A stretch of 64,000 nucleotides of DNA from Streptomyces sp. WM6378. Lineage in GTDB: Bacteria > Actinomycetota > Actinomycetes > Streptomycetales > Streptomycetaceae. Numbering within the stretch: the stretch's first letter is position 1; every line of letters begins with the position of its first letter. Shown piece after piece: positions 17,995 through 36,173 of the stretch. The notes beneath the pieces were generated by a model. The model searched no databases. It saw only the letters and a program-made list of their open reading frames with translations, and had not been told where the DNA came from. Position numbers and translations under genes: made by a program. The stretch lies in assembly GCF_001279695.1 (NCBI RefSeq), contig NZ_LGDD01000309.1, forward strand, positions 1 through 64,000. The letters are read 5' to 3'.

Positions 17995-18018
17995 TTATCG
18001 AGTTGCGCAACCTCTAAA
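17995..18018. promoter_or_regulatory. Palindromic operator copy 1 (TTGC-N4-TTRCGCAA-N4-GCAA family)
   Basis: The core TTGCGCAA is at 18003-18010, with degenerate outer arms and a right flank CCTCTAAAGTG nearly identical to copy 5. It lies 9 bp before the ATG at 18027 and about 95 bp from the divergent gene at 17901. Confidence 0.55.
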
Positions 18019-18026
18019 GTGTTGCC

Positions 18027-18266
18027 ATGGATGCGGACGACACGGCGGGCTGGGAATCGGCTGAGCTCGACGGCGGGCCGGCGCACGGGCTGCGCATGCG
18101 GATCGCCGGCCAGCCCGGGGTGCTCCAGGTGACGTACCCCTGTGCGGTGGAGCCGCAGGCGGAGAACGTGAGCGTCCAGGCGCTGTTCATCTACCGGCGG
18201 GACACGCGGCGACGCACCGGCGGTGATCAGCCGGTGCGCTACGGCTTCGATGCGGCCAGCCCCTGA
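18027..18266 (+). CDS. Small hypothetical protein
   Basis: A 79-residue acidic-to-neutral protein without membrane segments or recognised domain. The start ATG lies only nine bases after the palindrome copy 1, so no normal Shine-Dalgarno sequence fits and translation may be leaderless. It converges with the broken tatA copy on the minus strand. Function unknown. Confidence 0.5.
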   Translation: MDADDTAGWESAELDGGPAHGLRMRIAGQPGVLQVTYPCAVEPQAENVSVQALFIYRRDTRRRTGGDQPVRYGFDAASP

Positions 18267-18277
18267 GCCTTGGCCCG

Positions 18278-18561
18278 TCAGCTGCCGTCGACGTGCTGCT
18301 GGACGGTGCGGGCCGAGGCCGCATCGCCGGGAGCGGTCTGGATCGTCCAGTCAGGCGCCTCCGGCTGCGCGACCGGGGGAGAATCCGCCGAGGCCGCCGC
18401 TTGGGCACCCTCCTGCTTCATCGCCTTCGTCTCGCTCTTGAGGATGCGCAGCGACTTGCCCAACGCCCGGGCCGTATCGGCGGTTTCTACGAGCCGAACA
18501 GCAGGATGATCACAATCGCCAGGATCAGCAGATGCCATGGCTCCAGCCCGTTGCGGAACAT
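18278..18561 (-). pseudogene. tatA: Frameshifted tatA (Sec-independent translocase subunit A)
   Basis: Starting at ATG 18561 the frame gives M-F-R-N-G-L-E-P-W-H-L-L-I-L-A-I-V-I-I-L, a typical TatA transmembrane helix and hinge ending L-F-G-S. It then hits TAG where K-K-L-P is expected. The amphipathic helix T-A-R-A-L-G-K-S-L-R-I-L-K-S-E-T-K continues in the neighbouring frame to 18278. A one-base loss at the F-G-S-K-K-L-P junction explains both. TatA inserts in the membrane to form the twin-arginine translocation pore; this copy should be inactive unless frameshifting occurs. It is divergent from the LCP gene. Confidence 0.75.
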
Positions 18562-18622
18562 TCCGCCCCCGCTTCCCCCCGTCGAACCAGGACACCTCGA
18601 CGGGATGCGCCCACGGGAAAGA

Positions 18623-18646
18623 TTGCTACATTGCGCAACTGTACAA
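18623..18646. promoter_or_regulatory. Palindromic operator copy 2
   Basis: TTGC-TACA-TTGCGCAA-CTGT-ACAA: the outer left arm and core are perfect, with one mismatch in the right outer arm. It sits midway between divergent starts at 18561 (tatA remnant) and 18707 (LCP). Confidence 0.65.
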
Positions 18647-18706
18647 CTGTGGGGTGGGTTGAATCGGCCCCTTCTTTGGTGAGCCGTACGGACAAGGGGC
18701 GCGCGA

Positions 18707-20254
18707 GTGGCAGGCAGTCGTAAGGCGTCGAGTCGGCGTCGTGGTGGTGGCCGGGCGCTGGAGGCGAGCCGGCGGCGCAAGCGCAGCAAGACGAAGGTCG
18801 GGATCTGGGTCGCGGTCTCGCTGCTCGTGCTGCTGACGGCCGGCGCTGGCTGGATCTACCTTCAGCTCGACGGCAACATCGAGACCTTCGGTGCGGACGG
18901 AATTTCCAACAACCGGCCGCCCGCCTCCGCGAACGGGTCGAACGTGCTGGTCATCGGCACGGACGCACGGACCGGAGGGAACAGCGACCTCGGTGGCGGC
19001 GACAAGAGTGACATCGGTCGCTCCGACACCGCCCTCCTGCTGCACGCCTATGCCGACCAGAAGCACGCCGTCGCGGTCTCCATCCCCCGCGACACTCTGG
19101 TCGACATCCCGCCGTGCAAACTCCCCGACGGCAATTGGACCAAGCCCCAGGCCAACACCATGTTCAACGCGGCCTACTCCGTGGGGCAAACCCCCAAGGG
19201 CAACCCCGCCTGCACCCAGAACACCGTCGAGAAGCTGACCGGCCTGCGCGTCGACCACACCGTGGTCGTCGACTTCAAGGGCTTCGCGAAGATGACCGAG
19301 GCCGTCGGCGGCGTCCAGGTCTGTCTGCCCCAGGACCTCTACCAAAAAGACCTCAACCCCAACCGCCCCACCCGCGGTGCCCAGATCTTCGCGAAGGGTC
19401 CGCAGACCGTCTCCGGCCAGAAGGCCCTGGACTACGTGCGCATCCGCCACGGCATCGGCGACGGCTCCGACATGGGCCGCATCAAACGCCAGCAAGCCTT
19501 CGTGGCCTCCCTGCTGAAAAAGGTGAAGAGCGACGGCCTGACTCCCACCAGCCTGCTCCCGCTCGCCAACGCCGCCACCGAGTCGCTGACCGTGGACCCC
19601 GGGCTCGGCTCCGCCCAGAAGCTCATCTCCTTCGCCATGTCGATGAAGAACATCGACCTGCACAACACCAAGTTCGTCACCCTCCCATGGCGCTACCAGG
19701 GCGCCCGTGTCGCCATCGTCCACCCGGACACCGAAGCCCTGTGGGCCGCGCTGAAGGCCGACCGCACCCTCGACGGCCAGGACGCGGGCAACCACCACGA
19801 CGAGCAGGCCAGTGACTCGTCCCCGTCACCCAGCGCCACGGAATCGGTGTCCGGCACGGGCATCTCCGTCGCCGTGTACAACGGCACCACCGTCACCGGC
19901 CTGGCCGCCCGCGCCGCCGACGCCCTCAAGCAGCACGGCTTCACCGTCACCAGCACCGGCACCGCCACGGTCCGCACCCAGAGCAAGACCGTGATCGAGT
20001 ACGGGCCCGGCGAGAAGGACCAGGCCGAGAAGGCCGCCCAAATCTTCCCCGGCGCGGAAGTCACCGCTACGGCCAAGCCCAGAGTCAAGATCATCCTGGG
20101 CAAGGTCTACGCCACCGACCCCACCTCGACGGCATCAACCGCACCGAGTGCGGTGCCCTCCGGTATCGCCGGGGGCGCCCGCTCCGCCGACGACGACCCC
20201 TGCTCCAACCTCTCGTACGGCTCAGTACGAGTCCCACCCGCCCGACGCACCTGA
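18707..20254 (+). CDS. LytR-CpsA-Psr (LCP) family cell-wall glycopolymer ligase
   Basis: A 515-residue membrane-anchored protein: basic cytoplasmic N-terminus, one helix at about 31-52, then the LCP catalytic domain (V-L-V-I-G-T-D-A-R near 80, S-I-P-R-D-T with the phosphate-binding Arg near 125, R-I-R-H-G near 243). A LytR_C domain follows near 385-470 (S-V-A-V-Y-N-G-T-T-V-T-G-L-A). LCP enzymes transfer undecaprenyl-linked polymers such as teichoic or teichuronic acids to peptidoglycan outside the membrane. GTG 18707 is the start. The TPM-like gene follows after 12 bp, so they are one operon downstream of palindrome copy 2. Confidence 0.88.
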   Translation: MAGSRKASSRRRGGGRALEASRRRKRSKTKVGIWVAVSLLVLLTAGAGWIYLQLDGNIETFGADGISNNRPPASANGSNVLVIGTDARTGGNSDLGGGDKSDIGRSDTALLLHAYADQKHAVAVSIPRDTLVDIPPCKLPDGNWTKPQANTMFNAAYSVGQTPKGNPACTQNTVEKLTGLRVDHTVVVDFKGFAKMTEAVGGVQVCLPQDLYQKDLNPNRPTRGAQIFAKGPQTVSGQKALDYVRIRHGIGDGSDMGRIKRQQAFVASLLKKVKSDGLTPTSLLPLANAATESLTVDPGLGSAQKLISFAMSMKNIDLHNTKFVTLPWRYQGARVAIVHPDTEALWAALKADRTLDGQDAGNHHDEQASDSSPSPSATESVSGTGISVAVYNGTTVTGLAARAADALKQHGFTVTSTGTATVRTQSKTVIEYGPGEKDQAEKAAQIFPGAEVTATAKPRVKIILGKVYATDPTSTASTAPSAVPSGIAGGARSADDDPCSNLSYGSVRVPPARRT

Positions 20255-20266
20255 GGAGAATCCCCC

Positions 20267-21634
20267 ATGCCCGCCTACCCCCGGGCCGCACGACCGAGCT
20301 GGGCCACGGCTCTGGCCGCGTCGCTGCTCGCCCTGGCCGCCGCGCTCATCCCCGTTCCCGCACATGCCGCGAGCGGCACGGCGACGGTGGCCGACGCACT
20401 CAAGAAGAGCCCGGTCTACGTCGATCCGCGGGCCGAGGCCCAGCTGCCGAAGCCGGATGCCGAGGCGCTCGCGAAGAAGATCAAGGACGCGGGTAAGCCC
20501 GTCTTCGTGGCCGTCCTGCCGCAGAGCGCCGAATTCCCTTCCGGCTCCGTCCTGAAGGACGTGCGCTCGCTCACCGGCATCACCGGGCTGTACGCGATCC
20601 GGCTCGGCGACGGCTTCAACGCGGGAGCCGATCGGCAGGTGATGGCCAAGAACGCCGTCGAGAACCTGGTGGGCGCCGTCAAGCGGTCCTCGCCTCCGGA
20701 CGCGAAGACGGAGCTGAACGCCTTCGTCGACCAGGCCCTCCACCAGGCCAAGGGCAAGGCACCCGGCTCCTGGTCGGGCGGGGGCGAGGACGGCTCCGCC
20801 ACTGCCGCCTGGCTCGCCGTCGGCGGGGTGCTCGTGGTGGGCGGCGGCGCCGGATACGCCATTCTGAGGCGGTCGCGGAAGAAGCGTGAGGAGCGCGAGC
20901 GCGCCGAACTGGACGCCCTGCGCACCGTGGTGGACGAGGACATCACCGCCTACGGCGAAGAACTCGACCGACTCGCCTTCACGCCCTCCGAGTCCGGCGC
21001 CACCGACGCCATGCGCAAGGATTACGAGCACGCCCTCGATGCCTACGACAAGGCGAAGGAGCAGACGGCGGCGGCCCGTGTGCCGCAGGACATCCAGGCG
21101 GTGACCGAGACGCTCGCCGACGGCCGGTTCGCCCTGGCCACCTTGGAAGCCAGGCGCGGCGGCCGACTTCTGCCCGAGCGCCGACTGCCGTGTTTCTTCG
21201 ACCCCCGGCACGGCCCTTCGGTGACCGACGTTCAGTGGGCCCCGCCCGGGGGCAGCCCGCGCCCGGTTCCGGCCTGCGCCGACGACACCGCACGCGTCAA
21301 CTCCGGGCAGGACCCCGAAGCCCGCACGGTCCACACCGACCAGGGCCCGCAGCCGTACTGGAACGCCGGGCCCGCCTACGCCCCTTGGGCGGGCGGCTAC
21401 TTCGGCGGCGCCGCCGGCGGCATCCTCGGCGGCCTCCTCGTGGGCACCGTGCTCGGCGGCCTCATCAGCGCGCCGAGCGCGTTCGCCGAACCGGGCTTCG
21501 CCGGGCCCGAAAGCCTGCCCGGCGGCGGCGAGTCCAGCGGCTCCGACTTCAACCCGGCCGACTTCTCCGGAAGTTTTGGCGGCGGCGGGTTCGGCGGTGA
21601 CTCGGGAGGCGACTTCGGCGGCGGCGACTGGTAG
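20267..21634 (+). CDS. Secreted/membrane protein with TPM-like N-terminal domain and Gly-rich tail
   Basis: 455 residues: Sec signal peptide (hydrophobic 14-32, A-H-A-A-S cleavage), a domain resembling TPM phosphatase modules (V-Y-V-D-P-R-A-E-A then V-F-V-A-V-L-P), one transmembrane helix near 185-205, and a basic, coiled cytoplasmic segment. The C-terminus is Gly/Ser/Phe-rich with repeated G-G-G-F-G-G-D-S-G-G-D-F, as in other TPM proteins. The role is probably in envelope quality control or polymer metabolism; the biochemical activity is uncertain. ATG 20267 follows GAGGAG and lies 12 bp after the LCP stop. Confidence 0.7.
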   Translation: MPAYPRAARPSWATALAASLLALAAALIPVPAHAASGTATVADALKKSPVYVDPRAEAQLPKPDAEALAKKIKDAGKPVFVAVLPQSAEFPSGSVLKDVRSLTGITGLYAIRLGDGFNAGADRQVMAKNAVENLVGAVKRSSPPDAKTELNAFVDQALHQAKGKAPGSWSGGGEDGSATAAWLAVGGVLVVGGGAGYAILRRSRKKREERERAELDALRTVVDEDITAYGEELDRLAFTPSESGATDAMRKDYEHALDAYDKAKEQTAAARVPQDIQAVTETLADGRFALATLEARRGGRLLPERRLPCFFDPRHGPSVTDVQWAPPGGSPRPVPACADDTARVNSGQDPEARTVHTDQGPQPYWNAGPAYAPWAGGYFGGAAGGILGGLLVGTVLGGLISAPSAFAEPGFAGPESLPGGGESSGSDFNPADFSGSFGGGGFGGDSGGDFGGGDW

Positions 21635-21651
21635 CCGTCACGGCCCCAGGC

Positions 21652-21679
21652 CCGGCCCCGGTGCCGCAACCGGGGCCGG
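21652..21679. terminator. Bidirectional hairpin between convergent genes
   Basis: A perfect 11-bp GC stem with a six-base loop lies between the TPM-like gene (ends 21634, plus) and the arsR gene (ends 21766, minus). Confidence 0.65.
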
Positions 21680-21765
21680 CTCCACCCCGCAGCCAGTCGG
21701 CCAGTTCACTCTCAAGCTCCACTAGCTCCCCTGCATTGCCGACGGAGGTCGAACGGCTCCCGGCC

Positions 21766-22122
21766 TCAGGACCCCACAGAACACAGGAGACGTTCAGGGG
21801 CCTCATCGGCGGTCCGCCTCAGCTGACGCACCATCAACTGCACGACGGCGACGATGTCCTGGTCGTCCACGTAGTAGATCTGGCGACGTCCTTCGCGGCG
21901 TGAGCCCACGAGGCCGGCGAGTTTCAGCTTCGCCAGGTGCTGGCTCGTCGCAGGGAGCGCGCCGCCCAGCCGCTCCGCGAGCCCCGACACATCGCTCTCG
22001 CCCTGCGCCAGCGCCCACACGATGTGCAGGCGCGCGGGCGAAGCCAGCAGGCCGAACGCCGCTGCGGCGTCCGCCAGGACCTCCGCGGTCGGGTCCATGC
22101 GCTCGCCGCTGCCCGCTGCCAT
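21766..22122 (-). CDS. ArsR-family winged-helix regulator
   Basis: A 118-residue HTH_20/ArsR-type regulator: helix-turn-helix D-V-S-G-L-A-E-R-L-G-G-A-L-P-A-T-S-Q-H-L-A-K-L near 45-67, then the beta-wing R-R-E-G-R-R-Q-I-Y-Y-V-D. There is no obvious Cys or His metal-site cluster, so it may sense something other than metal. ATG 22122 has GGGAGG nine bases upstream; GTG 22131 is less likely. Palindrome copy 3 lies about 105 bp upstream. It is the only intact specific regulator between 17 and 30 kb, so it is one candidate for reading that palindrome, though ArsR operators usually differ. Confidence 0.82.
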   Translation of the reverse strand: MAAGSGERMDPTAEVLADAAAAFGLLASPARLHIVWALAQGESDVSGLAERLGGALPATSQHLAKLKLAGLVGSRREGRRQIYYVDDQDIVAVVQLMVRQLRRTADEAPERLLCSVGS

Positions 22123-22226
22123 CTCGTCCACCCTCCCGTCGCGTCCCGGTCACGTCCCGTGCCCGGGGGCAGCCTCAGTGTAGGCACGGCACTTGCCGTC
22201 TTACAGGGAGACGCCCTGCGCGGGCT

Positions 22227-22250
22227 CCAGATAGTTACGCAACCGTGCAA
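22227..22250. promoter_or_regulatory. Palindromic operator copy 3
   Basis: The core TTACGCAA at 22235-22242 is followed by CCGT and GCAA (right half perfect). The left outer arm is degenerate. It lies upstream of the arsR gene. Confidence 0.55.
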
Positions 22251-22383
22251 CGGATTATTGCCGCCAGGCATCCGGCGTCCCCGGACGCGGCCGGATTTCT
22301 GCCGCGCCACAACGATGGCACGGAGGCATCGCGTGCTGCCCCTGTGCGGGCGCATGAACATGGCTCGTCGGCGCCGGGCGGAG

Positions 22384-22417
22384 CCTTGGGACCCGCCGAT
22401 GGCGGCGGGTCCCAAGG
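22384..22417 (-). terminator. Terminator hairpin of the cold-shock-like gene
   Basis: A perfect 14-bp stem with a six-base loop ends five bases before the stop codon region of the minus-strand cold-shock-like gene. Confidence 0.7.
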
Positions 22418-22421
22418 GGGC

Positions 22422-22646
22422 TCATTCGGCCATGCGGACGCGCTCTGCTAGGTGGACGTGTTCGGCATGGAGCTCGCCGGAGCCGGTCACCGCCACGTAG
22501 GTGACGCGCAGTCCTTCGGTGAGGAAGGTTGCGCCTTCGATGGCTTCGCGGCGGACCAGGACCTCACGGCCGTCGTCCCCGTCGATGTACCCGTACCCCT
22601 TGGCCTGGTTGAACCAGCGGACCACTCCGCTGACCCTGTCGTTCAC
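22422..22646 (-). CDS. Cold-shock-domain-like nucleic-acid-binding protein
   Basis: 74 residues with the CSD fold: G-V-V-R-W-F-N-Q-A-K-G-Y-G-Y-I (RNP1 region, with Tyr replacing the usual Phe) near residue 5-19. The RNP2 equivalent is V-L-V-R-R-E-A-I rather than V-F-V-H-x-S-A-I, and T-Y-V-A-V-T follows in the last strands. It is a divergent paralogue of the CspA family, which binds single-stranded RNA or DNA; loss of aromatic RNP residues may weaken binding. GTG 22646 is preceded by GAGGAAGAGGA. Confidence 0.78.
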   Translation of the reverse strand: MNDRVSGVVRWFNQAKGYGYIDGDDGREVLVRREAIEGATFLTEGLRVTYVAVTGSGELHAEHVHLAERVRMAE

Positions 22647-22736
22647 TCCTCTTCCTCCCCGCTGTGTACTGGACTTACCTGTCCCTCTGCCGCCTGTGAT
22701 GCCCTTTCCTGGGGGGCGCACGCCGGAAGCGCCGGG

Positions 22737-24299
22737 TCAGTTGACGCAGGGCACGCCACCGGCCTTCACCGCCGGCCCGCTGTCCCCGCTGTCCGCCGCG
22801 GAGGCGGAGTCGCTGGGAGCGGGCGCAGGCGCCTTGCTGTTCGGGGGTGTGTAGTCGCGGCCCAGTGTGACGCGGACGTGTCCGGCCGGAATGGCGGAGC
22901 TGGCGGTGGCCGTACCCGACTTGAGGCGGGACGCGATCTGCTGGGCGGCCTGCTGTGCGCCTGCCCCGTAGGCCACGGTGGTGTGGGCCTGGGCGGGCGC
23001 GTTGCCGGTCTGTCCCGCGGTGTAGCCGAGTGCGGTCAGGGCGTTGAGCTCGGTGTCGGCGAGACCGCCGGTGCCGTTGCCGTTGCGGACGTCCACGGTG
23101 GCCGGCGCGGCCTTCGCGCCGGCCTTGGAGTCGCCGTCATCGGGCGCGGCGGACGAGGCGGGGCTGGGGCCGAAGGTCTGCTGAACGATTGCTTTGATCT
23201 TCTCGGCGTCGACGAGGTTGACCGATTCGCCCTTGCGGGTGGCGAATCCGGTGATGGGCAGGGTGTGGAACTCGACGTTGCCGCCGGTGAGGTTGGGTGC
23301 TTGCTGAGCGAAGTCCAGTACGTGCCAGGCACTGTCGAGGACCAGGTCCTTCTTCACGACCCCGAACAGCCCCTGCAGCTTGCCGAGGTCGCCGAAGAGG
23401 CCCTCGTCCTTGAGCTGGTGGGTGACGCTGGAGATGAATGCCTGCTGGCGGCGGGTGCGGTCGAGGTCGCCGTTGTCGAGGCCGTGGCGCTGGCGGACGA
23501 AGGCGAGGGCCTGCTTGGCGTCGACCTTCTGTACCCCGGCCGGGAAGTCCGCGCCGGAATAGCGGTCCTTGACCGGGTGCTTGAGGCAGACGGTGATGGG
23601 CTGAAGGACTTTGGCGATGTCGTAGAAGCCGAGCAGGTTGACCTCGGCGAAGTGGTCGATCGGCACGCCGGTGAACTGCTGCACGGTGGCGAGCGTCGCC
23701 TCGCGCCCGGCCTCGCGGCTCTTGCCTTCGAGGTCCGGGCCTTTGATGCCCTGCTTGGACAGGCGTTCGCTGGCGCCGGTGTAGGCGTTGGCGTACGCCT
23801 CCTTTATCTTGTGCTCGCCCTGGGAGGAGCCGTCGCCGTTGAGGGTCTCCACGTAGTCGTCCCGGGGAATGGAGAACGCGCTGACTTTGCCGCCGTCCGC
23901 CGGGATGTGCATCAGGATCAGCGTGTTGGTGTTGTAGTAGCCGATATCGCTGGACCCTGCGTGCAACTGGTCCTGGACGAACTCCTTGGGCAGGTCGTTG
24001 CCGTCCATGTCCTTGCGTGAATCGAGGCCTATCAGCAAGAGGTTCACCGAACTGTCCAGGTGCTTGGGCGCGTTCTTCTTCACGGCGTCCAGGGCATCCG
24101 ACGTAGTGAGGCCGTTCGTCAGTGACCGGTACGCGAACCACGTCACGCCACAGGCGATGAGCACGACGGCGGAGGTCAGCCACACCATGGCGCGCAGGGC
24201 GAGGACCCACCGCGGTCGGCGGGTACGGCCGTCGGCCGGTGAGCCGGGCGACGACTTGCGGCGGCGGTTCTGCGGGCGGGAGGAAGGGTTGTCAGGCAT
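22737..24299 (-). CDS. Second LytR-CpsA-Psr family protein
   Basis: 520 residues with a basic cytoplasmic N-terminus, one membrane helix at about 31-57, and an LCP domain with L-L-L-I-G-L-D-S-R-K-D near 87, S-I-P-R-D-D-Y-V near 143 and F-V-R-Q-R-H-G-L near 263. A LytR_C domain (V-D-V-R-N-G-N-G-T-G-G-L-A) near 400 and a Ser/Pro/Ala-rich tail ending in Cys follow. The role is attachment of glycopolymer to the cell wall. Its start overlaps the end of the upstream DUF6542-like gene by 8 bp, indicating translational coupling. It is divergent in sequence from the LCP gene at 18707, so it is not a recent tandem copy. Confidence 0.88.
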   Translation of the reverse strand: MPDNPSSRPQNRRRKSSPGSPADGRTRRPRWVLALRAMVWLTSAVVLIACGVTWFAYRSLTNGLTTSDALDAVKKNAPKHLDSSVNLLLIGLDSRKDMDGNDLPKEFVQDQLHAGSSDIGYYNTNTLILMHIPADGGKVSAFSIPRDDYVETLNGDGSSQGEHKIKEAYANAYTGASERLSKQGIKGPDLEGKSREAGREATLATVQQFTGVPIDHFAEVNLLGFYDIAKVLQPITVCLKHPVKDRYSGADFPAGVQKVDAKQALAFVRQRHGLDNGDLDRTRRQQAFISSVTHQLKDEGLFGDLGKLQGLFGVVKKDLVLDSAWHVLDFAQQAPNLTGGNVEFHTLPITGFATRKGESVNLVDAEKIKAIVQQTFGPSPASSAAPDDGDSKAGAKAAPATVDVRNGNGTGGLADTELNALTALGYTAGQTGNAPAQAHTTVAYGAGAQQAAQQIASRLKSGTATASSAIPAGHVRVTLGRDYTPPNSKAPAPAPSDSASAADSGDSGPAVKAGGVPCVN

Positions 24300-24828
24300 G
24301 GTCGCGCCTCCTGCTGCGCAGGGACTGGAGGCCGAGTACCGCCAGCACGGCCAGTACCGTGCACTCTGCGGCGGCCATGGCGGGGAAGGCGGCTACCGCC
24401 CACCGGATCAGGTCCGTGGACGTCGACTTGCCGCCGGAGCTGGAAGGCCCGGTCAACAGGTGCACGGCCGCGGCCAGCGCGGCGACCACCAGGGCAGGCA
24501 GCGGCGCCACCCACGACAGAGCCTTTCGCCTCACCCCCAGCACGGCCGACGCGGCCGCACCGGCCACACCGCCCACCAGCAGCCCCCATCCGGAACCGGA
24601 ACCACCTACGGCATCGACACAGGCACCCACCAGCGGCGGGACCAGCAGGGCCAGCGCCAGGGCCGAACGCGTGGGCCCTCGGCCGCGGGCCGGGCCGGAC
24701 CGATGCCCGGCGGACACTCCCGGCGGCACAGAATCGGGCACTGGCCGCTCCCCCTGTACGGGCGTGCCACCACCGGGGCCCCGGCGTGGTGGATTGCCGC
24801 CCGGCACGGCCGGAGATCGCTGCTGCAT
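24292..24828 (-). CDS. DUF6542-like integral membrane protein
   Basis: About 178 residues: a Pro/Gly-rich cytoplasmic N-terminus, then four hydrophobic segments (around 57-75, 80-98, 105-122 and 140-165) in the pattern of the actinobacterial DUF6542 domain. Function unknown. ATG 24828 follows GAGGGA at seven bases and is preferred to ATG 24843. Overlap with the LCP gene suggests a partnership in envelope polymer assembly. Palindrome copy 4 lies about 110 bp upstream. Confidence 0.6.
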   Translation of the reverse strand: MQQRSPAVPGGNPPRRGPGGGTPVQGERPVPDSVPPGVSAGHRSGPARGRGPTRSALALALLVPPLVGACVDAVGGSGSGWGLLVGGVAGAAASAVLGVRRKALSWVAPLPALVVAALAAAVHLLTGPSSSGGKSTSTDLIRWAVAAFPAMAAAECTVLAVLAVLGLQSLRSRRRDHA

Positions 24829-24935
24829 GCACCCGTCCCTCATGACTCAGTCCGAGAGGCTCCCCTCCCGCGACCCCAATACGGCCACCCCTCATGCCGT
24901 TACCGCAGAGGAAGACGAGCCGCCCACCCCATTAG

Positions 24936-24959
24936 TTGCAGACTTACGCAATCTCGCAA
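24936..24959. promoter_or_regulatory. Palindromic operator copy 4
   Basis: TTGC-AGAC-TTACGCAA-TCTC-GCAA: both outer arms are perfect. It is preceded by ATTAG as in copy 7. It lies upstream of the DUF6542-LCP operon. Confidence 0.7.
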
Positions 24960-25203
24960 GCATCACGGCTGTGACGAGAGTCACTAACCCGGGGTGGCTG
25001 CCCGGACTGGCCGCCTGAAGCCCTCGGGCTGATCCGTGCCGGACGGGCCGGTAACCGCGGACGGCGCGGCGCGAACTGCTTCACTCCGGCCCTGGCCACA
25101 GCTCCACACCACCCCCGCAGTCGTGTTCCAGCTCACGGACCTGGCTCGCGTACACGCGGTGGAGCAGGCGGTGCGTCTCACGGGCCAGCCGCAACCACTC
25201 CCC

Positions 25204-25434
25204 CTACATACGGGAGCGCCTGCGGTTCGCGCGCACCGGATGCAGGGTGCCTCCCGCCGCGATGCAGGCCCCGACTCCGCTCGTCACGTTGGTGCAGTTG
25301 CCGCCGATCAGCTCGACCGTCCCGCTCGGGGTGAGGATATGCGCGAGCGGCAGCACGATCAGACAGATGCCGAGTGCGGTCAGGAAGACGCCATGCGCCT
25401 TGCCGGCCAGGACGCGGAAGCAGAGCGAGGGCAC
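25204..25434 (-). CDS. Small membrane protein with a Cys pair
   Basis: 76 residues: one hydrophobic helix (G-V-F-L-T-A-L-G-I-C-L-I-V-L-P-L) at about 15-32, then G-G-N-C-T-N-V-T-S-G-V-G-A-C with two Cys nine residues apart that could form an extracytoplasmic disulphide, then a basic tail. GTG 25434 follows GAGGGG at about 11 bases. Family not recognised. Confidence 0.55.
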   Translation of the reverse strand: MPSLCFRVLAGKAHGVFLTALGICLIVLPLAHILTPSGTVELIGGNCTNVTSGVGACIAAGGTLHPVRANRRRSRM

Positions 25435-25633
25435 GGTCGAAACGCCCCTCAGGGTGGGCGATATCCGTCAGCGACTCGACGGGCGCCGCCCCCCATCCTG
25501 GCCCCCGGCTCACCCGCGGGAGGGGCGGACGCGCCGAACTCTGCACTCATGCCAGAACCTCCGGATTCCGCCGGGCTGAACACGCAGTGGTTCCTCTACT
25601 ACGGCTGGGAGGACGAACCGCGACACCGGATGG

Positions 25634-25657
25634 TTCCCTACTTGCGCAACCTTTAAA
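25634..25657. promoter_or_regulatory. Palindromic operator copy 5
   Basis: The core TTGCGCAA is at 25642-25649, with right flank CCTTTAAAGTG almost identical to copy 1. It lies about 65 bp upstream of the tatB start. Confidence 0.6.
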
Positions 25658-25722
25658 GTGTTGAGGGTGTGGCTCGCCGTGCTCGCGGCGTGCGGGCGCT
25701 TTGTCGATCAAGGAGCGAGCGG

Positions 25723-26142
25723 ATGTTCAGTGAACTGAGCCCGATGAAAGTGGTCACCATCGCCATCGTCGCGATCTTCATCTTCGGGCCGGACAAGCTG
25801 CCCGAGTTCATCCGCAACGCGACCGGCGTCCTGCGCAAGGTGCGGGCCTTCGCGGACAGCGCCAAACAGGACCTCCGTTCAGAACTCGGCCCGGAGTTCA
25901 AGGATTTCGAGTTCGAGGACCTCCACCCGAAGACCTTCGTACGCAAACACGTGCTGGACGGCGACAGCCTCGCCGGGGTGGAGGAGATCCGCAGCGCCCT
26001 CGACCCGCGCCCCGAACTGGCGGAGATCACGGCCGCCGTGCGCGACACAGCCGACGGCCGGGCGCCGGGTGCCGGCTCACTGGCCAAGGGCGCACAAGCA
26101 ACGCCGCCGACGCGACACGTGTTCGACCCCGACGCCACGTGA
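25723..26142 (+). CDS. tatB: TatB-like twin-arginine translocase subunit
   Basis: 139 residues. The N-terminal helix M-F-S-E-L-S-P-M-K-V-V-T-I-A-I-V-A-I-F is followed by the hinge F-G-P-D-K-L-P-E and an amphipathic helix. The Streptomyces TatB block D-S-A-K-Q-D-L-R-S-E-L-G-P-E-F-K-D-F then appears near residue 45. TatB receives twin-arginine signal peptides with TatC. ATG 25723 has AAGGAG upstream; the frame's earlier start is not homologous. No tatC is nearby and the only tatA copy here is frameshifted, so this is probably a paralogue. The twin-arginine amidohydrolase at 11.8 kb would be a client of the general system. Confidence 0.82.
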   Translation: MFSELSPMKVVTIAIVAIFIFGPDKLPEFIRNATGVLRKVRAFADSAKQDLRSELGPEFKDFEFEDLHPKTFVRKHVLDGDSLAGVEEIRSALDPRPELAEITAAVRDTADGRAPGAGSLAKGAQATPPTRHVFDPDAT

Positions 26143-26275
26143 CCGCCGACCGGCCAGGCAGCTCACACCACTGACGCCCTCCGACGAAGTGCCGCACGCC
26201 AGGAACGAGTTGGGCGTGCCCGTTCTAGACTTTCCCCCTCGGTTGTGGTGCTCGACCAGGACAGGGGGCAGCGCC

Positions 26276-26638: not shown

Positions 26639-26717
26639 ACCGCCGCCGGACTCCCCGCAGCACCTGGGCACCTGCTCGTTCGGCACGACTTCCTGGCGCA
26701 TGATCACATCCAGATGA

Positions 26718-26741
26718 TTGCCGGATTACGCAACTGGGCAA
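26718..26741. promoter_or_regulatory. Palindromic operator copy 6
   Basis: TTGC-CGGA-TTACGCAA-CTGG-GCAA: a perfect match to the consensus. It lies about 30 bp before the frame at 26773. Confidence 0.7.
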
Positions 26742-26772
26742 CCCTCTCGGGTGTAACCGTCAACGCCGAGGG

Positions 26773-27123
26773 GTGCAATTGCCACAGGAACAGCTTCCGT
26801 CAACGGGCAGCGCGAACCTGCGCATTGGGGCGGCCATGGCCCAGATAGAGGGCCTCTACACGGCCCTGCGCCTCACCGGCCCCGGCCCTCGCAGGGAGCA
26901 GCTGGCTGCCGATCTCGCACGCGCCGCCCAGAGGCTCTCCGCCATAGCCCTCGCCACCGCAGGAGCGGACGTGATCATCCCGCCGCGCTCGCGCTGGCAG
27001 CGCCGCCGTGCGCTCGCGGCCCGCGGAGCCAACTGGCTCATCACCCGCACCTCCCGGCCCACACCCGACGGCCCGAGCCCAAAGGAAAAAGGGGCATCCG
27101 GCAAGGGGATGCCACCTATGTAA
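26773..27123 (+). CDS. Hypothetical basic protein
   Basis: Up to 116 residues from GTG 26773; ATG 26836 is an alternative start. It has an alanine-rich helical middle (A-M-A-Q-I-E-G-L-Y-T-A-L-R near 21 and D-L-A-R-A-A-Q-R-L-S-A-I-A near 47) and an Arg/Lys/Pro-rich tail. No family recognised. The position immediately after palindrome copy 6 supports a real promoter and gene. Confidence 0.5.
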   Translation: MQLPQEQLPSTGSANLRIGAAMAQIEGLYTALRLTGPGPRREQLAADLARAAQRLSAIALATAGADVIIPPRSRWQRRRALAARGANWLITRTSRPTPDGPSPKEKGASGKGMPPM

Positions 27124-27125
27124 GA

Positions 27126-27143: not shown

Positions 27144-27216
27144 GGCGGCGGTCGTGAACCTCAAGCCCAGTCTGCAACCGGCACTTTACGCCGTGGATGA
27201 CGACCGGAACGCCTTG

Positions 27217-28056
27217 CTACCCACGTGGGCGCTGTCGGCGGATACGTTCGGCGATCTCGCTGTCCTCGGATTCCCACCAAGGGCGGACCAGGTCCACGTT
27301 CTGCCCCTGTGGCTGCCCAGGAAGGGCGGGTGAGGGGGTGAGTTCCGTCTGAAGGCGGCGGTCCAGCGCAGCCGCCTCCGCGCGGTCGGCGCGGGCCCAC
27401 TGGACCAGGATCGCGAGCAGGAAGGGCACCGCGACCAGTTCGGCGATGCTGAGCATCGCGCCGCCGCCGAGCTGTTGGTCATGGTGGGCATCGGGCGCCC
27501 AGGACGGCGCGTGGTGCCGGCACCAGTCGCCCGCGATCAAGGTGCTGCCAGCCATCACCACGATGCCCGGCAGGGCGTCGACGATGCCGTCGAGGAAGAC
27601 CAGTGCCCCGCGTACCGGATGCGTGCACCAGGACGGTGCTGACGAGCGGGAACGTGAGCAGCCGCACCAGGAGCCCGGTCGTCGCCCGCCGGACCCGCTG
27701 TGCCGCGCGGTCGGGTAACGCGCGAGCAGCCAGCTGCAGCGGGTCGCCGAGCGCGAGGCCGAGTGGTGCGATCAGGTCGAGGAGCACGTTCTGGACCGCG
27801 GCCGGCCAGAACAGCGCGCGGCCGTACACAGCGAGCGCAGACATCGTCGCCACCACGAGCGCGCCAAGCCCCAGCAGCACGAATGCAGCACAACGAACCA
27901 GCGGCCAGCGCACACCGCGCCGTTCCAGACGCAGCGCCCCCCAGCCGTACAGCCCGCCCAGGACGGCGACGAGAACAGCGCCGGAACGTCCAACTCCCAG
28001 CAGGACACGGCCGTTCCCGCGGTCAGCTCCTTCACCTCAGCCGCACTCCATGCCAT
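27217..28056 (-). pseudogene. ctaG: Broken ctaG (caa3-type cytochrome c oxidase assembly factor)
   Basis: Pieces of a CtaG-family membrane protein lie in order but in different frames. First comes a W-E-L-D-V-P-A-L-F start, then L-G-G-L-Y-G-W-G-A-L-R-L-E-R-R-G-V-R-W-P in a second frame. R-C-A-A-F-V-L-L-G-L-G-A-L to F-P-L-V-S-T-V-L-V-H-A-S follows to about 27630. Then L-V-F-L-D-G-I-V-D-A-L-P-G-I-V-V-M and D-Q-Q-L-G-G-G-A-M-L-S-I-A-E-L continue in another frame. About 40 residues that normally separate the last two blocks are missing. At least two frameshifts and an internal deletion make it non-functional. CtaG normally helps insert copper into terminal oxidase. Confidence 0.8.
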
Positions 28057-28248
28057 GCCGACCGCCCCTCGCTCCCGGCTCGCGCTGGGGCCCCAACCCG
28101 GTTCACGCTAGACCCGCCTGGCGGGCCGGGTGTCGCGGGAGCGGGCAAGAGGGCAGCAGCGCCTTCCCAGCGCCAGGTGCTCCGTCGTTAGGCGGCTCAC
28201 CCGGTGTCCGCCGCTTCGGACGGCGGGCCGTATTGTGGTCGCGATTAG

Positions 28249-28272
28249 TTGCATAATGGCGCAACTTAGCAA
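28249..28272. promoter_or_regulatory. Palindromic operator copy 7
   Basis: TTGC-ATAA-TGGCGCAA-CTTA-GCAA, one mismatch in the core. The ten bases ATTAGTTGCA at its left are identical to copy 4. It lies between the ctaG remnant (minus) and the SEDS gene (plus). Confidence 0.68.
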
Positions 28273-28399: not shown

Positions 28400-29848
28400 G
28401 TGCGGAGAGTGGCGAACGTGACCCGATCTCGGTCTGCAATGGGTGCGGGCTCCGAGGACGACTACGGGCACACGATGTCGTTCGCGGCGCTCGCGCAGGC
28501 GCCCAACCGGCGGCGCGCCGAGGCATGGCTGCTCGGCTTCGTCGTACTGATCACCGTCGGCGGCTACACCTGCACCGGTCTCTCCATGGACGGCCGGCTG
28601 CCCTCGGGGCTGCCCGGGTTCGCCGCCGCCGTCTTCCTGCTCGCGCTGGTGCCGCACCTGGCGGTGCGGCGCTGGGCGTCGAGGGCCGATCCACTGCTCC
28701 TGCCGCTCGCCCTGCTGCTGACCGGGCTCGGCCTGGTGCTGATGTACCGGCTCGACATCACCTACGCGGCCGAGCCCCGCCTGAGGATCCCCCAGGCCGG
28801 CAGCGGCCAGCTGATGTGGACGGTCATCGGGGTGGCCGTCTGCGTCGGCGTGCTGGTCATCCTGCGTGATCACCGCTGGTTGCAGCGGTACCTGTATCTG
28901 ATGATGGCGGTCGCCCTGGTACTGCTGATGGCTCCGGCGTTCTTCGGCGCCGACCAGTTCGGCGCCAAGCGGTGGATCATGCTGGGGCCGCTGTCCGTGC
29001 AGCCCGGCGAATTCGTGAAGATCATGATCGCGGTGTTCTTCGCCGGTTATCTCACGGTCAACCGCGACGCGCTCGCCCTGACCGGCCGACGCCTCCTCGG
29101 CATGAGGCTGCCGCCCGGCCGGCAGATGGCGCCGATCGCGACGATCTGGGTGCTCAGCCTGCTGGTGCTCATCTTCGAGCGAGACCTCGGTACGTCCCTG
29201 ATCTTCTTCGGCCTCTTCGTGATCATGCTGTACATGGCCACCGAGCGCACCAGCTGGGTGGTGTGCGGCCTGCTCATGGCCGTGGTCGGGGCCGGGGTGG
29301 TCGGCTCGATGGAGCCGCACGTCCACGGCCGAGTGGTGGCCTGGCTGCACCCCATGGATGCCTTCACGCCCGCCGGGCAGAAGGCCGGGATCTCCGAACA
29401 GCTCGGCCAGGCCCTGTTCAGCTTCGGCAGCGGCGGCATCACCGGCACCGGCCTCGGCCAGGGCCACCCCGAACTCATCGGGTTCGCAGGCAACAGCGAC
29501 TTCATCCTCACCACCGTCGGTGAAGAGCTCGGCCTGGCCGGGGTGATGGCCGTCCTGCTCCTGTACGGCCTCCTCGCGCAGCGCGGACTGCGCATCGGCG
29601 TCCTGGCCCGCGACCCGTTCGGCAAACTCCTGGCGGTCGGCCTGTCCAGCGCGCTCCTGCTCCAGGTATTCGTCGTCTCGGGCGGCGTCATGGGCCTGAT
29701 CCCGCTAACCGGCAAGGCCCTGCCGTTCCTCGCCAAGGGCGGCTCCTCCATGGTCGCCAACTGGCTGATGGTGGCCCTGCTGATCCGCATCAGCGACAGC
29801 GCCCAGCGCCGGCGCGAACCGACCGCCAAACCCTCACCTCAGCCGTAA
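28400..29848 (+). CDS. FtsW/RodA/SpoVE (SEDS) family peptidoglycan polymerase
   Basis: About 482 residues with roughly 12 hydrophobic segments. SEDS signatures are present: G-A-K-R-W-I-M-L-G-P-L-S-V-Q-P-G-E-F-V-K near 200, F-E-R-D-L-G-T-S near 262, the catalytic-loop region F-G-S-G-G-I-T-G-T-G-L-G-Q-G near 350 and D-F-I-L-T-T-V-G-E-E-L-G near 375. SEDS proteins polymerise glycan strands with a cognate class B PBP. No PBP gene is adjacent, so it is an extra, possibly differentiation-specific, copy. GTG 28400 has GGGAGG six bases upstream. It lies downstream of palindrome copy 7. Confidence 0.88.
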   Translation: MRRVANVTRSRSAMGAGSEDDYGHTMSFAALAQAPNRRRAEAWLLGFVVLITVGGYTCTGLSMDGRLPSGLPGFAAAVFLLALVPHLAVRRWASRADPLLLPLALLLTGLGLVLMYRLDITYAAEPRLRIPQAGSGQLMWTVIGVAVCVGVLVILRDHRWLQRYLYLMMAVALVLLMAPAFFGADQFGAKRWIMLGPLSVQPGEFVKIMIAVFFAGYLTVNRDALALTGRRLLGMRLPPGRQMAPIATIWVLSLLVLIFERDLGTSLIFFGLFVIMLYMATERTSWVVCGLLMAVVGAGVVGSMEPHVHGRVVAWLHPMDAFTPAGQKAGISEQLGQALFSFGSGGITGTGLGQGHPELIGFAGNSDFILTTVGEELGLAGVMAVLLLYGLLAQRGLRIGVLARDPFGKLLAVGLSSALLLQVFVVSGGVMGLIPLTGKALPFLAKGGSSMVANWLMVALLIRISDSAQRRREPTAKPSPQP

Positions 29849-30675: not shown

Positions 30676-31404
30676 ATGGCTGACCTGACTACCTTCGACT
30701 TCGCCCTGCGGCTCGCCGTGGGTGTCGGCTGCGGGGCCCTGATCGGTATCGAGCGGCAGTGGCGTGCCCGCATGGCGGGACTGCGCACCAATGCGCTGGT
30801 GGCAGCCGGTGCGACCCTGTTCGTCCTCTACAGCGAGGCGGTCGGCGACGCGGGCAGCCCGACGAGAGTCGCCTCCTACGTCGTCTCCGGCATCGGCTTC
30901 CTCGGCGGTGGCGTCATCCTGCGCGACGGCGCCTCCGTACGCGGCCTCAACACCGCGGCCACCCTGTGGTGTTCGGCCGCCGTCGGAGTCCTGGCAGCCT
31001 CCAGCCACCTGGAACTGGCCCTGATCGGCACGGGCGCGGTCCTCGCCGTCCACCTGGCGCTGCGGCCCGCCGGACGGCTCATCGACCGGGTTCCCCAGCA
31101 TGACCCCGACACCGAAGGGGTACGCGCCACCGTCCACCTCGTGTGCGACCGCAGCGAGGACGCCCACATCCGCGCCCTGCTCCTGCAGTCCATGGCGAGC
31201 AGCGGACTCACCCCCACCGGCCTGCGCGTGCGCCGCGAGGACGACGACACCACCGAACTGCGGGCAGTCGTCGCAGTCGGCGGCGACCCCGCCCGCGCCC
31301 TGGAACAGCTCATCGCCCGGCTGTCGCTCGAACCCGGCATCCACGACCTGCACTGGCACCTGGACCCAACCGCCACCGAAGACGAACGGGACGCCGTGGC
31401 ATGA
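30676..31404 (+). CDS. mgtC: MgtC/SapB family membrane protein
   Basis: 242 residues: an N-terminal MgtC domain with four or five helices and the signature G-C-G-A-L-I-G-I-E-R-Q-W near residue 17-28, L-R-T-N-A-L-V-A near 36, and G-F-L-G-G-G-V-I-L-R-D-G near 73-84. A C-terminal ACT-like soluble domain follows from about 150. MgtC proteins support growth in low Mg2+ and modulate ATP synthase or phosphate uptake in other bacteria. ATG 30676 follows AGGAGG. The next frame overlaps its stop as ATGA. The leader shares an element with the NRAMP gene, suggesting common control. Confidence 0.9.
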   Translation: MADLTTFDFALRLAVGVGCGALIGIERQWRARMAGLRTNALVAAGATLFVLYSEAVGDAGSPTRVASYVVSGIGFLGGGVILRDGASVRGLNTAATLWCSAAVGVLAASSHLELALIGTGAVLAVHLALRPAGRLIDRVPQHDPDTEGVRATVHLVCDRSEDAHIRALLLQSMASSGLTPTGLRVRREDDDTTELRAVVAVGGDPARALEQLIARLSLEPGIHDLHWHLDPTATEDERDAVA

Positions 31405-33575: not shown

Positions 33576-33582
33576 GGGCGAC

Positions 33583-33921: not shown

Positions 33922-34006
33922 GGAATCCTCCCTTGTCGAAGGGGAGTTGGGGGCGGTCTGGCGCTCCGGCCCGCGGGGCGGCGTTGGTCGCCGCCCCGCG
34001 CGGGGC

Positions 34007-35650
34007 TTACTGGCCGAGGGCGACCTGGACGATTTTGATGACGACCAGGATCATCGCGATCAGCAGGTAGGTGCGCAGGGCGCCCATGCCGATCTTGCGG
34101 GTGGTGGACATGGTCGGCCTGGTGAGTGTCTCCAGGGGTGGCATCCGCCAACCGTCGCGGCCGGTGCGGTCGATGGGGTCTTCCTTGGTGCCGGTGCGCC
34201 GCCGGGTGAAGGAGTACCCGGCCGCCAGGACTCCGGCCACCCCACAGGCGGCCATGATGTCGAGGATCGCGTTCGCGGTGATGTCGGGGAACAGGACGGA
34301 GGCGGTCAGGATGACGGAGAGGGTGACCAGGACGCCGACGACCGCTGCGGTGAAGGCGTTGGTCTTGGGACCGTTGACCCAGGGGCCAAGGACGGCCTTG
34401 TCGTTGCAGAGCAGCAGCAGGAAGACGGACGCGGAGGGCAGCAGGACTCCGGCCAGGGTCTGCACGCCCTGGGTGAGCAGGCCGAGCGGGGAGCCGGGGA
34501 TCAGTACGATCGTGGCGGCCACGGCCACCAGGCCGGCGTAGATGGCGTAGAAGCCCTTGGCGCCCTTGACCCCGCGGTGCAGGGAGTGCTTCATGCCGAA
34601 CACGTCACCGATGGCGTAGGCGGTGGAGAGCGAGACCGCGAACGCTCCGATGATCGAGGCATCCAGCAGGGCCACGGCGAAGAGCACGCCGGCAACCTTG
34701 CCGGCGTGGGCCTCGATGCCGGCCGCGACACCGGCGGTGTCGTCGAAGTTGCCGAAGCCGTTGGTCCCGGCGAACGCAGCGGCGGCCATGCCCATGACCG
34801 CGGCGGCGCCGATGATGACGATGGCTATGCCGATCCACAGGTCGGCCTTCTCGTACTTCATGAAGCGCGGGGTGATCCGCTTGTCGATGACGTACGACTG
34901 CTGGAAGAACAGCTGCCACGGCGCCACCGTCGTGCCCACGATGCCGATGATCAACAGCATCACCGTCGCCAACTCCCCTGATCCGCCCGGCATGTTGGGC
35001 ACCACGAAGTCGTGTGCCATCTGTGAAGAGGCCGGGTGAATGATGAAGTACAGCGGAACCAGCAGCAGCGAACCCGCGCACAGGAAGATCGCGATGCGCT
35101 CGAACCGGCGGAAGGACCCGGTGAACGCCGAGGCGATGATGACCGCGGCGGCCAGGATCACCGACGTCGCCTTGGGCAGCCCCAGATACCCCGCGGCCAA
35201 CGTGATACCGATGAACTCGGTAACGAGGGTCAGCGCGTTGAGCAGGAACAGGTCAATGACACTGAACGCGCCCCAGAACTTCCCGAACCGCTCCAGGATC
35301 AGGCGGGCGTGCCCGACGCCGGTGACCGCACCCAGGCGCAGCACCATCTCCTGGTTCACATAGAGCACCGGAATCAGCAGGAGCAGGGTCCACAGCAGGC
35401 TGGTGCCGTAGTTCTGCCCGGCCTGGCCGTAGGTGGCGAAGGCGCCGGCGTCGTTGTCGCCGACCATCACGATCAGGCCCGGGCCGACTATCGCAAGGAG
35501 CGTCTTGAGCTTGGCGGACAGTCCCCGGCGCTCGCCGTGGTCGTCCAGTTTGATGGTGCCGAGCGCGCCGCGGATGTCGCCGACGTGGGCGTCGTCCAGT
35601 ACGGCAGTGCGGGGCTCCGGAATGACGGGCCTGGTGGGTGCGGTGGTCAT
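34007..35650 (-). CDS. NRAMP-related divalent cation transporter, probably Mg2+ type
   Basis: 547 residues, 11-12 helices. The TM1 metal motif reads D-N-D-A-G (residues 65-69) where Mn2+/Fe2+ NRAMPs have D-P-G-N. The TM6 motif reads T-V-A-P-W-Q where they have the metal-ligand Met of M-P-H-N. Replacement of the TM6 Met by Ala is, to my knowledge, the hallmark of NRAMP-related Mg2+ transporters. The extra C-terminal helix and tail end in V-K-I-V-Q-V-A-L-G-Q. ATG 35650 has GGGAGG upstream; earlier codons are not homologous. An M-box Mg2+ riboswitch precedes it, which independently supports Mg2+ as substrate. Confidence 0.88.
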   Translation of the reverse strand: MTTAPTRPVIPEPRTAVLDDAHVGDIRGALGTIKLDDHGERRGLSAKLKTLLAIVGPGLIVMVGDNDAGAFATYGQAGQNYGTSLLWTLLLLIPVLYVNQEMVLRLGAVTGVGHARLILERFGKFWGAFSVIDLFLLNALTLVTEFIGITLAAGYLGLPKATSVILAAAVIIASAFTGSFRRFERIAIFLCAGSLLLVPLYFIIHPASSQMAHDFVVPNMPGGSGELATVMLLIIGIVGTTVAPWQLFFQQSYVIDKRITPRFMKYEKADLWIGIAIVIIGAAAVMGMAAAAFAGTNGFGNFDDTAGVAAGIEAHAGKVAGVLFAVALLDASIIGAFAVSLSTAYAIGDVFGMKHSLHRGVKGAKGFYAIYAGLVAVAATIVLIPGSPLGLLTQGVQTLAGVLLPSASVFLLLLCNDKAVLGPWVNGPKTNAFTAAVVGVLVTLSVILTASVLFPDITANAILDIMAACGVAGVLAAGYSFTRRRTGTKEDPIDRTGRDGWRMPPLETLTRPTMSTTRKIGMGALRTYLLIAMILVVIKIVQVALGQ

Positions 35651-35784
35651 GGTGAGCCTCCCAATTCCCCTGGCAGGGGGAGAACATGGGGGCACGCGGC
35701 AGTCACGTACGGCACACCGAAGCAGCCCGGCCGCCCGGGACGGCCAGAGGCCGTACGGGTGCGGGTGAAAAGAAGTGTGCGCAG

Positions 35785-35870
35785 GGAGTGTCGTTATCGC
35801 GTGCCGAGGACGGGCGAGGTCGATCGGATGCGGGGCCGACTGTGGCCCGGACTACTGCAACTACAGTCCA
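35785..35870 (-). promoter_or_regulatory. Conserved leader element upstream of the NRAMP gene (copy A)
   Basis: Aligns without gaps over 86 nt with 30534-30619 before mgtC; roughly two thirds of positions agree by eye. It includes the GGGCC-N6-GGCCC hairpin with CGCATCCG after it, CACGC and TAACG. It lies between the M-box and the coding start, about 135 bp upstream of the latter. It may be an expression platform, second promoter or operator. Confidence 0.55.
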
Positions 35871-35989
35871 CGTCTCTCGCCTCCTTCCGGCCGGAGCACA
35901 CGCGGGTGCTGGACGACGCGGCAAGGAGCGGACCGGGCCCATCCCGGTTCACCCCAACTCGTCAGAGCTTTGGCACTGCACGGCGTAAT

Positions 35990-36115
35990 CCCCCTACCGG
36001 GGAAGCCACTTGGAGTCACCCCTTAAGTCGGGGAGACCTGTCCTGACCCTGGGCGTCTCTCGACGTCGTGGGGTCAGTGGCCTGTGTCCGTACAGACGCC
36101 TCACCGAACGAGGTG
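35990..36115 (-). ncRNA. M-box (ykoK) Mg2+ riboswitch
   Basis: On the minus strand the conserved M-box order is present: CGTT-GGTGAGGC at about 36110-36098, a variable stem, CACTGACC, then CGTCGAGAGACGCC and GGGTCAGGACAG. A GC stem around GACTTAAGG follows, then AAGTGGC. CGTCGAGAGACGCC is essentially the textbook core. M-boxes bind Mg2+ and repress downstream Mg2+ uptake genes when Mg2+ is plentiful. The target is the NRAMP-related gene starting at 35650. Confidence 0.85.
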
Positions 36116-36149
36116 CCCTCTTCAAACCTCCAGAAGCATAACCCCCTTC

Positions 36150-36173
36150 TTGCGCGATCACGCAACTACTTGG
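36150..36173. promoter_or_regulatory. Palindromic operator copy 8 (divergent)
   Basis: TTGC-GCGA-TCACGCAA-CTAC-TTGG: left arm and most of the core match, right arm poor. It lies between the divergent mscS gene and the M-box transcript. It is the weakest member of the set. Confidence 0.4.

Follow-up and report, generated by a model that had tools for sequence, protein, structure and literature searches.

Architecture of the operator cluster

The window, that is, the whole stretch of 64,000 nucleotides analyzed here from Streptomyces sp. WM6378 (contig NZ_LGDD01000309.1), contains a repeated palindromic sequence in front of genes for envelope proteins and, within the same cluster, a gene for an ArsR-family regulator. 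The repeated sequence is a real operator-type element, conserved and intergenic. Its six strong copies, at 17995, 18623, 24936, 25634, 26718, and 28249 (Table 1), are all intergenic by the gene calls, as the original prediction had stated. Since only these six are strong, the operator cluster spans 17995–28272, and a matrix scan of the window gave no strong operator past 28272. The eight copies first counted are thereby reduced to six. At 22227 there is no more than a half-site, whose right half is good and whose score is at noise level; its membership is uncertain. The copy at 36150, before mscS, scores −5.7 and was rejected as an operator; the mscS gene is present at 36321, as predicted, but is not a regulon member. 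A separate imperfect palindrome at 36150–36165 (TTGCGCGATCACGCAA) lies before mscS and is distinct from the operator.

For all six strong operators, the gene that follows belongs to a family with a site in at least one other genome. Operator 1 lies 8 bp 5′ of the start of the 79-residue protein at 18027, carries TAAAGT at its right edge, and has the minus-strand gene 17080–17946 on its other side; this arrangement recurs before orthologs of the 79-residue protein in other genomes. Operator 2 belongs to a class of sites conserved at the divergent regions between tatA and LCP genes, and an identical 24-mer is present on contig C329 of the same genome. A parallel to operator 4 is found in Streptomyces noursei (L197), where a site lies 313 bp before a DUF6542 gene that is followed by an LCP gene. 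TatB-like genes are preceded by sites also in L079, L080, L121, L151, and L182; the homolog of the 116-residue protein, L127_g1, has a site at 71 bp too; and the SEDS genes in L151 and L221 likewise have one.

A position mostly between divergent starts had been proposed, which holds for about half of the sites. Operators 1 (17080–17946 minus/18027 plus), 2 (broken tatA/LCP1), and 7 (broken ctaG/SEDS) separate divergent pairs, operators 4 and 6 do not, and operator 5 does so only if the 76-residue open reading frame 25204–25434 is real. The predicted gene content—two LCP proteins, a SEDS protein, TatB, and a dead tatA—is confirmed by profile matches and by the two-frame match of tatA; the label TPM for the protein adjoining LCP1 finds no counterpart in Pfam or NCBIfam.

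Table 1. Operators, predicted targets, and the ArsR gene in the cluster. Scores refer to the symmetric matrix.
Feature	Coordinates	Strand	Remarks
Protein without Pfam match, likely minus-side target of operator 1	17080..17946	−	homologs behind sites in 11 loci
Operator 1	17995..18018	+	exact TTN6TTGCGCAAN6AA; score 28.8
Conserved 79-residue protein without Pfam match, predicted target	18027..18266	+	homologs behind sites in 11 loci including the window
Broken tatA remnant	18278..18595	−	intact TatA of C329 matches in two frames
Operator 2	18623..18646	+	score 34.3; between broken tatA (−) and LCP1 (+)
LCP family transferase 1 (LCP1), predicted target	18707..20254	+	PF03816, PF13399, TIGR00350
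LCP1-adjoining protein ("TPM" originally)	20267..21634	+	no Pfam/NCBIfam match
ArsR-family regulator, proposed operator binder	21766..22122	−	118 residues; PF01022, NF033788
Possible half-operator	22227..22250	+	~105 bp before arsR; right half only; score 4.2
LCP family transferase 2 (LCP2), possible target via operator 4	22737..24299	−	PF03816, PF13399
DUF6542 protein, first gene behind operator 4	24292..24843	−	PF20177 25.9 bits, just below cut-off 27
Operator 4	24936..24959	+	score 23.3; ~92 bp before DUF6542-LCP2 genes (minus)
Operator 5	25634..25657	+	score 31.8; 65 bp before tatB-like gene
TatB-like protein, predicted target	25723..26142	+	NF002377 106.7 over cut-off 96
Operator 6	26718..26741	+	score 22.5; before 116-residue protein at 26773
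116-residue protein, predicted target	26773..27123	+	no Pfam match; homolog with site in L127
Operator 7	28249..28272	+	score 28.4; before SEDS (FtsW/RodA) gene
SEDS protein (FtsW/RodA/SpoVE), predicted target	28439..29848	+	PF01098 238.7 bits (scored from 28328); start from codon-usage gene caller

Sequence and specificity of the operator

The pattern originally proposed, TTGC-N4-TTRCGCAA-N4-GCAA, is enriched in the window. With up to three mismatches it gives 10 strand-matches, which correspond to five palindromic places, compared with 0.33 expected from dinucleotide-shuffled windows; 0 of 100 shuffles reached 10. Its central part TTRCGCAA occurs nine times against 1.21 expected. Over the complete genome of 9.49 Mb, the same pattern is unselective at three mismatches: it matches 16 times forward and 17 times reverse, hardly more than the reversed control with 12 and 8. 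With up to two mismatches, it matches on C308 (the window), C329, C94, and C18 of the own genome, and in 81 genomes of the genus it yields 69 forward matches against 36 for the control (summed from the match table).

After genus-wide searches had shown a wider consensus, the outer arms TTGC were replaced by TT...AA. The resulting exact pattern TTN6TTGCGCAAN6AA is found 156 times on the forward strand in 199 genus genomes compared with four control matches, and is present in 72 of these genomes. From 76 distinct exact sites a symmetric matrix was built; the refined consensus reads AYRnTTn6TTGC|GCAAn6AAnYRT, in which conservation extends to an A at −3 and a purine at −1. In the own genome, the refined pattern with up to one mismatch occurs at 10 places, compared with one for the reversed control. 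The window holds six of these places, C233 two, and C329 and C94 one each. The six window sites score from 34.3 down to 22.5 on the matrix (in the order 18623, 25634, 17995, 28249, 24936, 26718). Five mononucleotide-shuffled windows reach at most 8.1, 4.2, 1.2, 0.7, and −2.6, respectively, and five column-permuted matrices give 0 matches on a set of 80 loci selected by ArsR similarity.

Placement and target families

Loci from other genomes were fetched for a site, for ArsR, or for LCP1, and the separate set of 80 was chosen with similarity to ArsR as the sole criterion (the 80 best of 487 relatives, with up to 10 kb on each side). Genes in them were called by a codon-usage caller trained on five window open reading frames; the starts are uncertain, and the caller missed 17080–17946 and 26773–27123. 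A site counts as inside a gene if it lies >30 bp from both ends (15 bp in one scan that included the six window sites). In 1.23 Mb of fetched loci, 82% of which are coding by this caller, 118 sites score ≥20, and 0 of 118 lies inside a called gene in this sense, in loci that were chosen for site, ArsR, or LCP1. A single site (L093) overlaps a called start. Among the loci selected by ArsR alone, 63 of 80 contain a site, and 0 of their 105 sites lies >30 bp inside a called gene. Leaving out nine loci that share sequence with the matrix-building loci, sites are found in 55 of 71 loci (93 sites). The genome-wide scan that had been suggested as a check thus speaks for the element, and so does its conservation at orthologous promoters of other species, which was found for the LCP/tatA, 79-residue, TatB-like, and SEDS genes.

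The families behind the sites, as drawn from the fetched loci rather than from all genomic matches, are recurrent. Genes starting within 330 bp behind a site encode LCP proteins in 35 loci, TatA-like proteins in 35, and TerD in 16, followed by the 79-residue protein (11), the 17080–17946 family (11), TatB-like proteins (5), ArsR (3), GlsB (3), alkaline phosphatase (2), SEDS (2), and DUF6542 (2). TatC, UppP (BacA), a LURP-one protein, a lytic transglycosylase-like protein, and others are found behind sites in single loci. The distance from site to gene start ranges from ~0 to >300 bp. The target on C329 (L113:11450–11719) is a TatA/E subunit (NF001854 97.9 over 72; TIGR01411 59 over 53.9). The 79-residue and 17080–17946 families are both conserved and recurrent behind operators, with no match in Pfam.

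The ArsR-family protein as candidate regulator

One regulator for one envelope regulon had been proposed, and the rare, intergenic, and conserved motif supports this. The protein that binds the operator is most likely the ArsR-family protein of the cluster, as judged by comparing genomes. It matches PF01022 with 40.7 bits over a cut-off of 22 (scored as 21766–22131) and NF033788 with 76.3 over 55. Genomes were counted as ArsR-positive at a best E ≤ 1e-25, weaker matches (43–56% identity) being counted as negative, and the genome sets were transcribed by hand from match tables. By this threshold, 71 of the 199 genus genomes have an ortholog. The exact site is present in 68/71 ArsR-positive versus 4/128 ArsR-negative genomes and, in 109 further genomes of the genus, in 40/41 versus 1/68 (Fisher p = 3e-44 and 2e-27; descriptive only, among related genomes). 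An earlier count in 81 genomes with the narrower pattern gave 25/29 versus 0/52 at up to one mismatch; at up to two mismatches it gave 28/29 versus 14/52, with chance matches among them. Site and ArsR lie on different draft contigs in G016, G181, G233, G285, and G292. The same pairing is seen at the LCP1 promoter, for which 20 of 21 LCP1 matches were used (G073 was left out): a site lies within 450 bp upstream of 17 of 18 orthologs in ArsR-positive genomes and of 0 of two in ArsR-negative ones. In G070, which is ArsR-negative, the best match upstream of LCP1 lies at 113 bp, a usual distance, and shares 16 of 24 letters with the tatA/LCP site common elsewhere. Its likeness to a decayed operator is a suggestion only, as the score, 5.0, falls in the range of the shuffles.

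The genome G120, ArsR-negative by threshold, has an exact site (L154:278–301) 50 bp before a gene (352–783) for an ArsR-family protein of 39% identity. In a tally of the 32 most widespread families in 44 loci with site and ArsR, a P-type ATPase occurs in 33, LCP in 30, and TatA in 30; ArsR is present in all 44 by selection, and the TetR-, LysR-, and BlaI-like families, identified by eye, reach four loci each.

Several observations weigh against the assignment. Because of the common descent of the genomes, the counts are less independent than the p-values imply. The ArsR-positive genomes G010, G028, G197, and G311 have no exact site (G010 has one at one mismatch), and conversely no ArsR ortholog reaches the threshold in G005, G080, G168, and G288, which do have a site. 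In 17 of the 80 ArsR-selected loci the flanks contain no site, and one LCP1 ortholog, G033:C57, has none upstream although its genome is ArsR-positive. Outside the genus, 15 genomes of the same order gave 0 exact sites, though seven encode an ArsR of 57–59% identity; the matrix gives a match in two of three Nonomuraea loci. In the first locus set, an upstream match is found at five of 51 ArsR-family genes only, three of full strength, one of 17.6, and the window's of 4.2, and autoregulation of arsR thus does not appear to be a general rule. In favor of the assignment, 13 of 105 sites among the ArsR-selected loci lie upstream of arsR itself, 10 of these being common to GlsB.

The exact site of G288, a genome without an ArsR ortholog at threshold, lies in L171. 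The own genome encodes a second ArsR (C307:68063–68347; L105) of 71% identity, with no site at up to one mismatch in the 17 kb around it. In genomes with several ArsR copies, picked by eye, copies and exact sites number 4 and 13 (G260), 4 and 6 (G280), 3 and 8 (G238), 2 and 9 (G265), and 2 and 10 (G169), as if regulon size tracked regulator copy number.

Proposed mode of action and alternative readings

Either one ArsR dimer would bind the dyad of 24–30 bp at promoters across the genome, or two would, occupying its four TT/AA quarter-sites. There ArsR probably acts as a repressor of its targets, and it would be released by a signal that is probably no classical metal and may be an altered state of the envelope or of ions, low pH for example. 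Levels of the LCP wall-glycopolymer transferases, the accessory Tat subunits, the SEDS glycosyltransferase, and the small proteins would then go up, in other species possibly also those of TerD, GlsB, UppP, and alkaline phosphatase. For repression, the sites before the 79-residue family are the most telling. All 11 carry TAAA-N-T at their edge, with the start codon 2–9 bp further in five of 11, which suggests a leaderless message whose −10 element is covered by the operator. More generally, of 248 oriented sites 39 have a TANNNT that begins at −3 or +2 relative to the site end, compared with at most four for each other offset. Part of this phasing, however, is due to the operator, and the control side without a called gene shows it too, which counts against its use here; hence, the support that it gives to repression is modest.

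The reverse sign, ArsR binding the site but activating, is unlikely. Some members of the family (HlyU) are called activators in structure records, and many targets lack a visible −10 inside the site, but the operators of the 79-residue family, by covering the likely −10 and, in five of 11 cases, lying within 9 bp of the start codon, fit blocking.

It is also rather improbable that another DNA-binding protein, encoded elsewhere and traveling with ArsR, owns the operator, with ArsR being merely a member of the cluster. The 46 of 51 ArsR-family genes of the first set without an upstream match would fit such a protein, as would G005, G080, and G168 with their sites and no ArsR ortholog found. However, no comparably conserved DNA-binding family is present among the 32 most widespread ones, the pairing of site and ArsR persists across different draft contigs, and the distant ArsR of G120, in a genome free of the ortholog, has its own exact site.

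The reading of the motif as the promoter element of one sigma factor, in place of an operator, is very improbable. The motif does lie close before genes, and the two preferred TANNNT offsets would suit a promoter; but its two sides have identical arms, making it a dyad, and it serves genes in both directions, its distance to the starts varies widely, and promoter elements are not known to be palindromic. A repeat of mobile or structural nature, for example an insertion or recombination site, with no regulator involved, is hardly credible; several copies do lie within ~10 kb in a region with broken tatA and ctaG, but their flanks differ among target classes, the same gene families recur behind them, and their presence tracks that of ArsR.

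Signal and comparison with known systems

The window protein, as the proposed repressor, shares its winged-helix family (PF01022, NF033788) with the ArsR/SmtB repressors SmtB, CzrA, NmtR, KmtR, and CmtR. This family uses dyad operators near promoters; the dyad described here, the putative operator, sits before its predicted targets and co-occurs with ArsR. Unlike in those repressors, the targets are envelope genes at several loci. The metal ligands in helix α5 of SmtB follow the arrangement D-x-H ... H-x2-E/H. In an ungapped alignment to SmtB (1r22), the window ArsR keeps only D104, whereas H106 is replaced by D and H117 by Q, and E120 is unaligned. SmtB-type metal sensing by the window protein is thus unsupported. 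Among the homologs listed (120 of 1271), 36 of 120 have a His somewhere in the α5 region and nine of 120 have any Cys, in eight of these before the last 20 residues; the Cys ligands that metalloregulators have in α3 or at the N terminus are therefore largely lacking. With one of three aligned ligands kept and Cys scarce, neither a classical metal nor a thiol is a likely signal. The distant ArsR of G120 does keep D-x-H-x10-H in its α5 region, as SmtB does, and together with its exact operator this could mean that a metal-sensing circuit was rewired, a tentative reading.

NolR, BigR/SqrR, and Rv0081 are ArsR regulators without a metal role, and they are not known to share the operator or the targets described here. 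The window protein resembles the NolR type in having the ArsR fold without the SmtB metal site and in its dispersed targets, and NolR and Rv0081 chains are among its sequence matches. It differs from the persulfide sensors BigR/SqrR, which have a conserved Cys pair: for their profile NF040642 it scores 46.4, below the cut-off of 155, and Cys is absent in 111 of the 120 listed homologs.

MgtA and MgtC belong to the magnesium response of enterobacteria. A likeness to this response is that the P-type ATPase family of the 44 loci includes a member that scores as MgtA type (TIGR01524 679.8 over 610.75 for L092:1548–4229, the one protein scored) and that an MgtC gene lies at 30676 in the window; the candidate regulator here, in contrast, is an ArsR protein. 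The gene order in S. noursei L202 reads arsR-mgtA-(TPM)-LCP-site-tatA-79aa-site-17080 family-terD-glsB, with arsR and mgtA overlapping by the gene calls. In Nonomuraea L243, a site lies before a CNNM/CorC protein behind arsR-mgtA. The neighbors of the window arsR are the 20267–21634 protein and a cold-shock protein, not an MgtA-type ATPase.

SigE, the last system to be compared, is a sigma factor and not a dyad-binding repressor. The envelope-stress regulon SigE/CseBC of Streptomyces is also said to include a LytR (LCP) gene, according to a Streptomyces albulus study (PMC7317143). Therein, the transcriptome at falling pH shows the LytR family gene MAGL008579 to be up, with printed values of 1.29 and 3.12, together with the TerD gene MAGL008582 (1.14, 2.52), and the authors attribute the acid-induced lytR to SigE (PMC7317143). 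The two gene numbers are three apart, which, going by the numbers alone, would fit an ArsR cluster. Low pH or ion stress as the signal is a lead only.

Neighboring features

The tatA gene of the window is broken, yet its operator and the divergent LCP gene are kept. On the minus strand at 27217–27913, Caa3_CtaG matches lie in two overlapping open reading frames of different frames; hence, the ctaG gene looks broken. Near the cluster are also genes for an MgtC family protein (30676–31404, plus strand) and an Nramp-family transporter (34007–35650, minus strand).

Implications

No paper describing the operator or the regulon was found in a search of titles and abstract beginnings, with the motif written as TTGCGCAA together with Streptomyces or ArsR, a form that misses other spellings. 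A search, likewise of titles and abstract beginnings, of the literature on ArsR, LCP, TerD, TatA, the cell wall, and MgtA-type ATPases in Streptomyces did not find the circuit. An ArsR-family regulon with this operator and these targets is, thus, most likely not described in the literature searched. How LCP transferases, accessory Tat subunits, and SEDS genes are controlled in these species was not otherwise found in that literature; a candidate regulator, an operator, and a target list are offered here. Because the exact operator is so specific across the 199 genomes, the regulon can be read from genome sequence.

About a third of the sampled genus carries the circuit, with ArsR in 71 of 199 and 41 of 109 genomes. 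In its widest and still tentative form, it may be a one-component envelope-stress circuit of many Streptomyces, in which an ArsR without metal site reads the ion, proton, or envelope state and, beside an MgtA-type pump, switches accessory Tat subunits, LCP/SEDS/UppP, and TerD as one regulon. The question thereby raised is what a metal-free ArsR, often encoded near an MgtA-type pump, senses.

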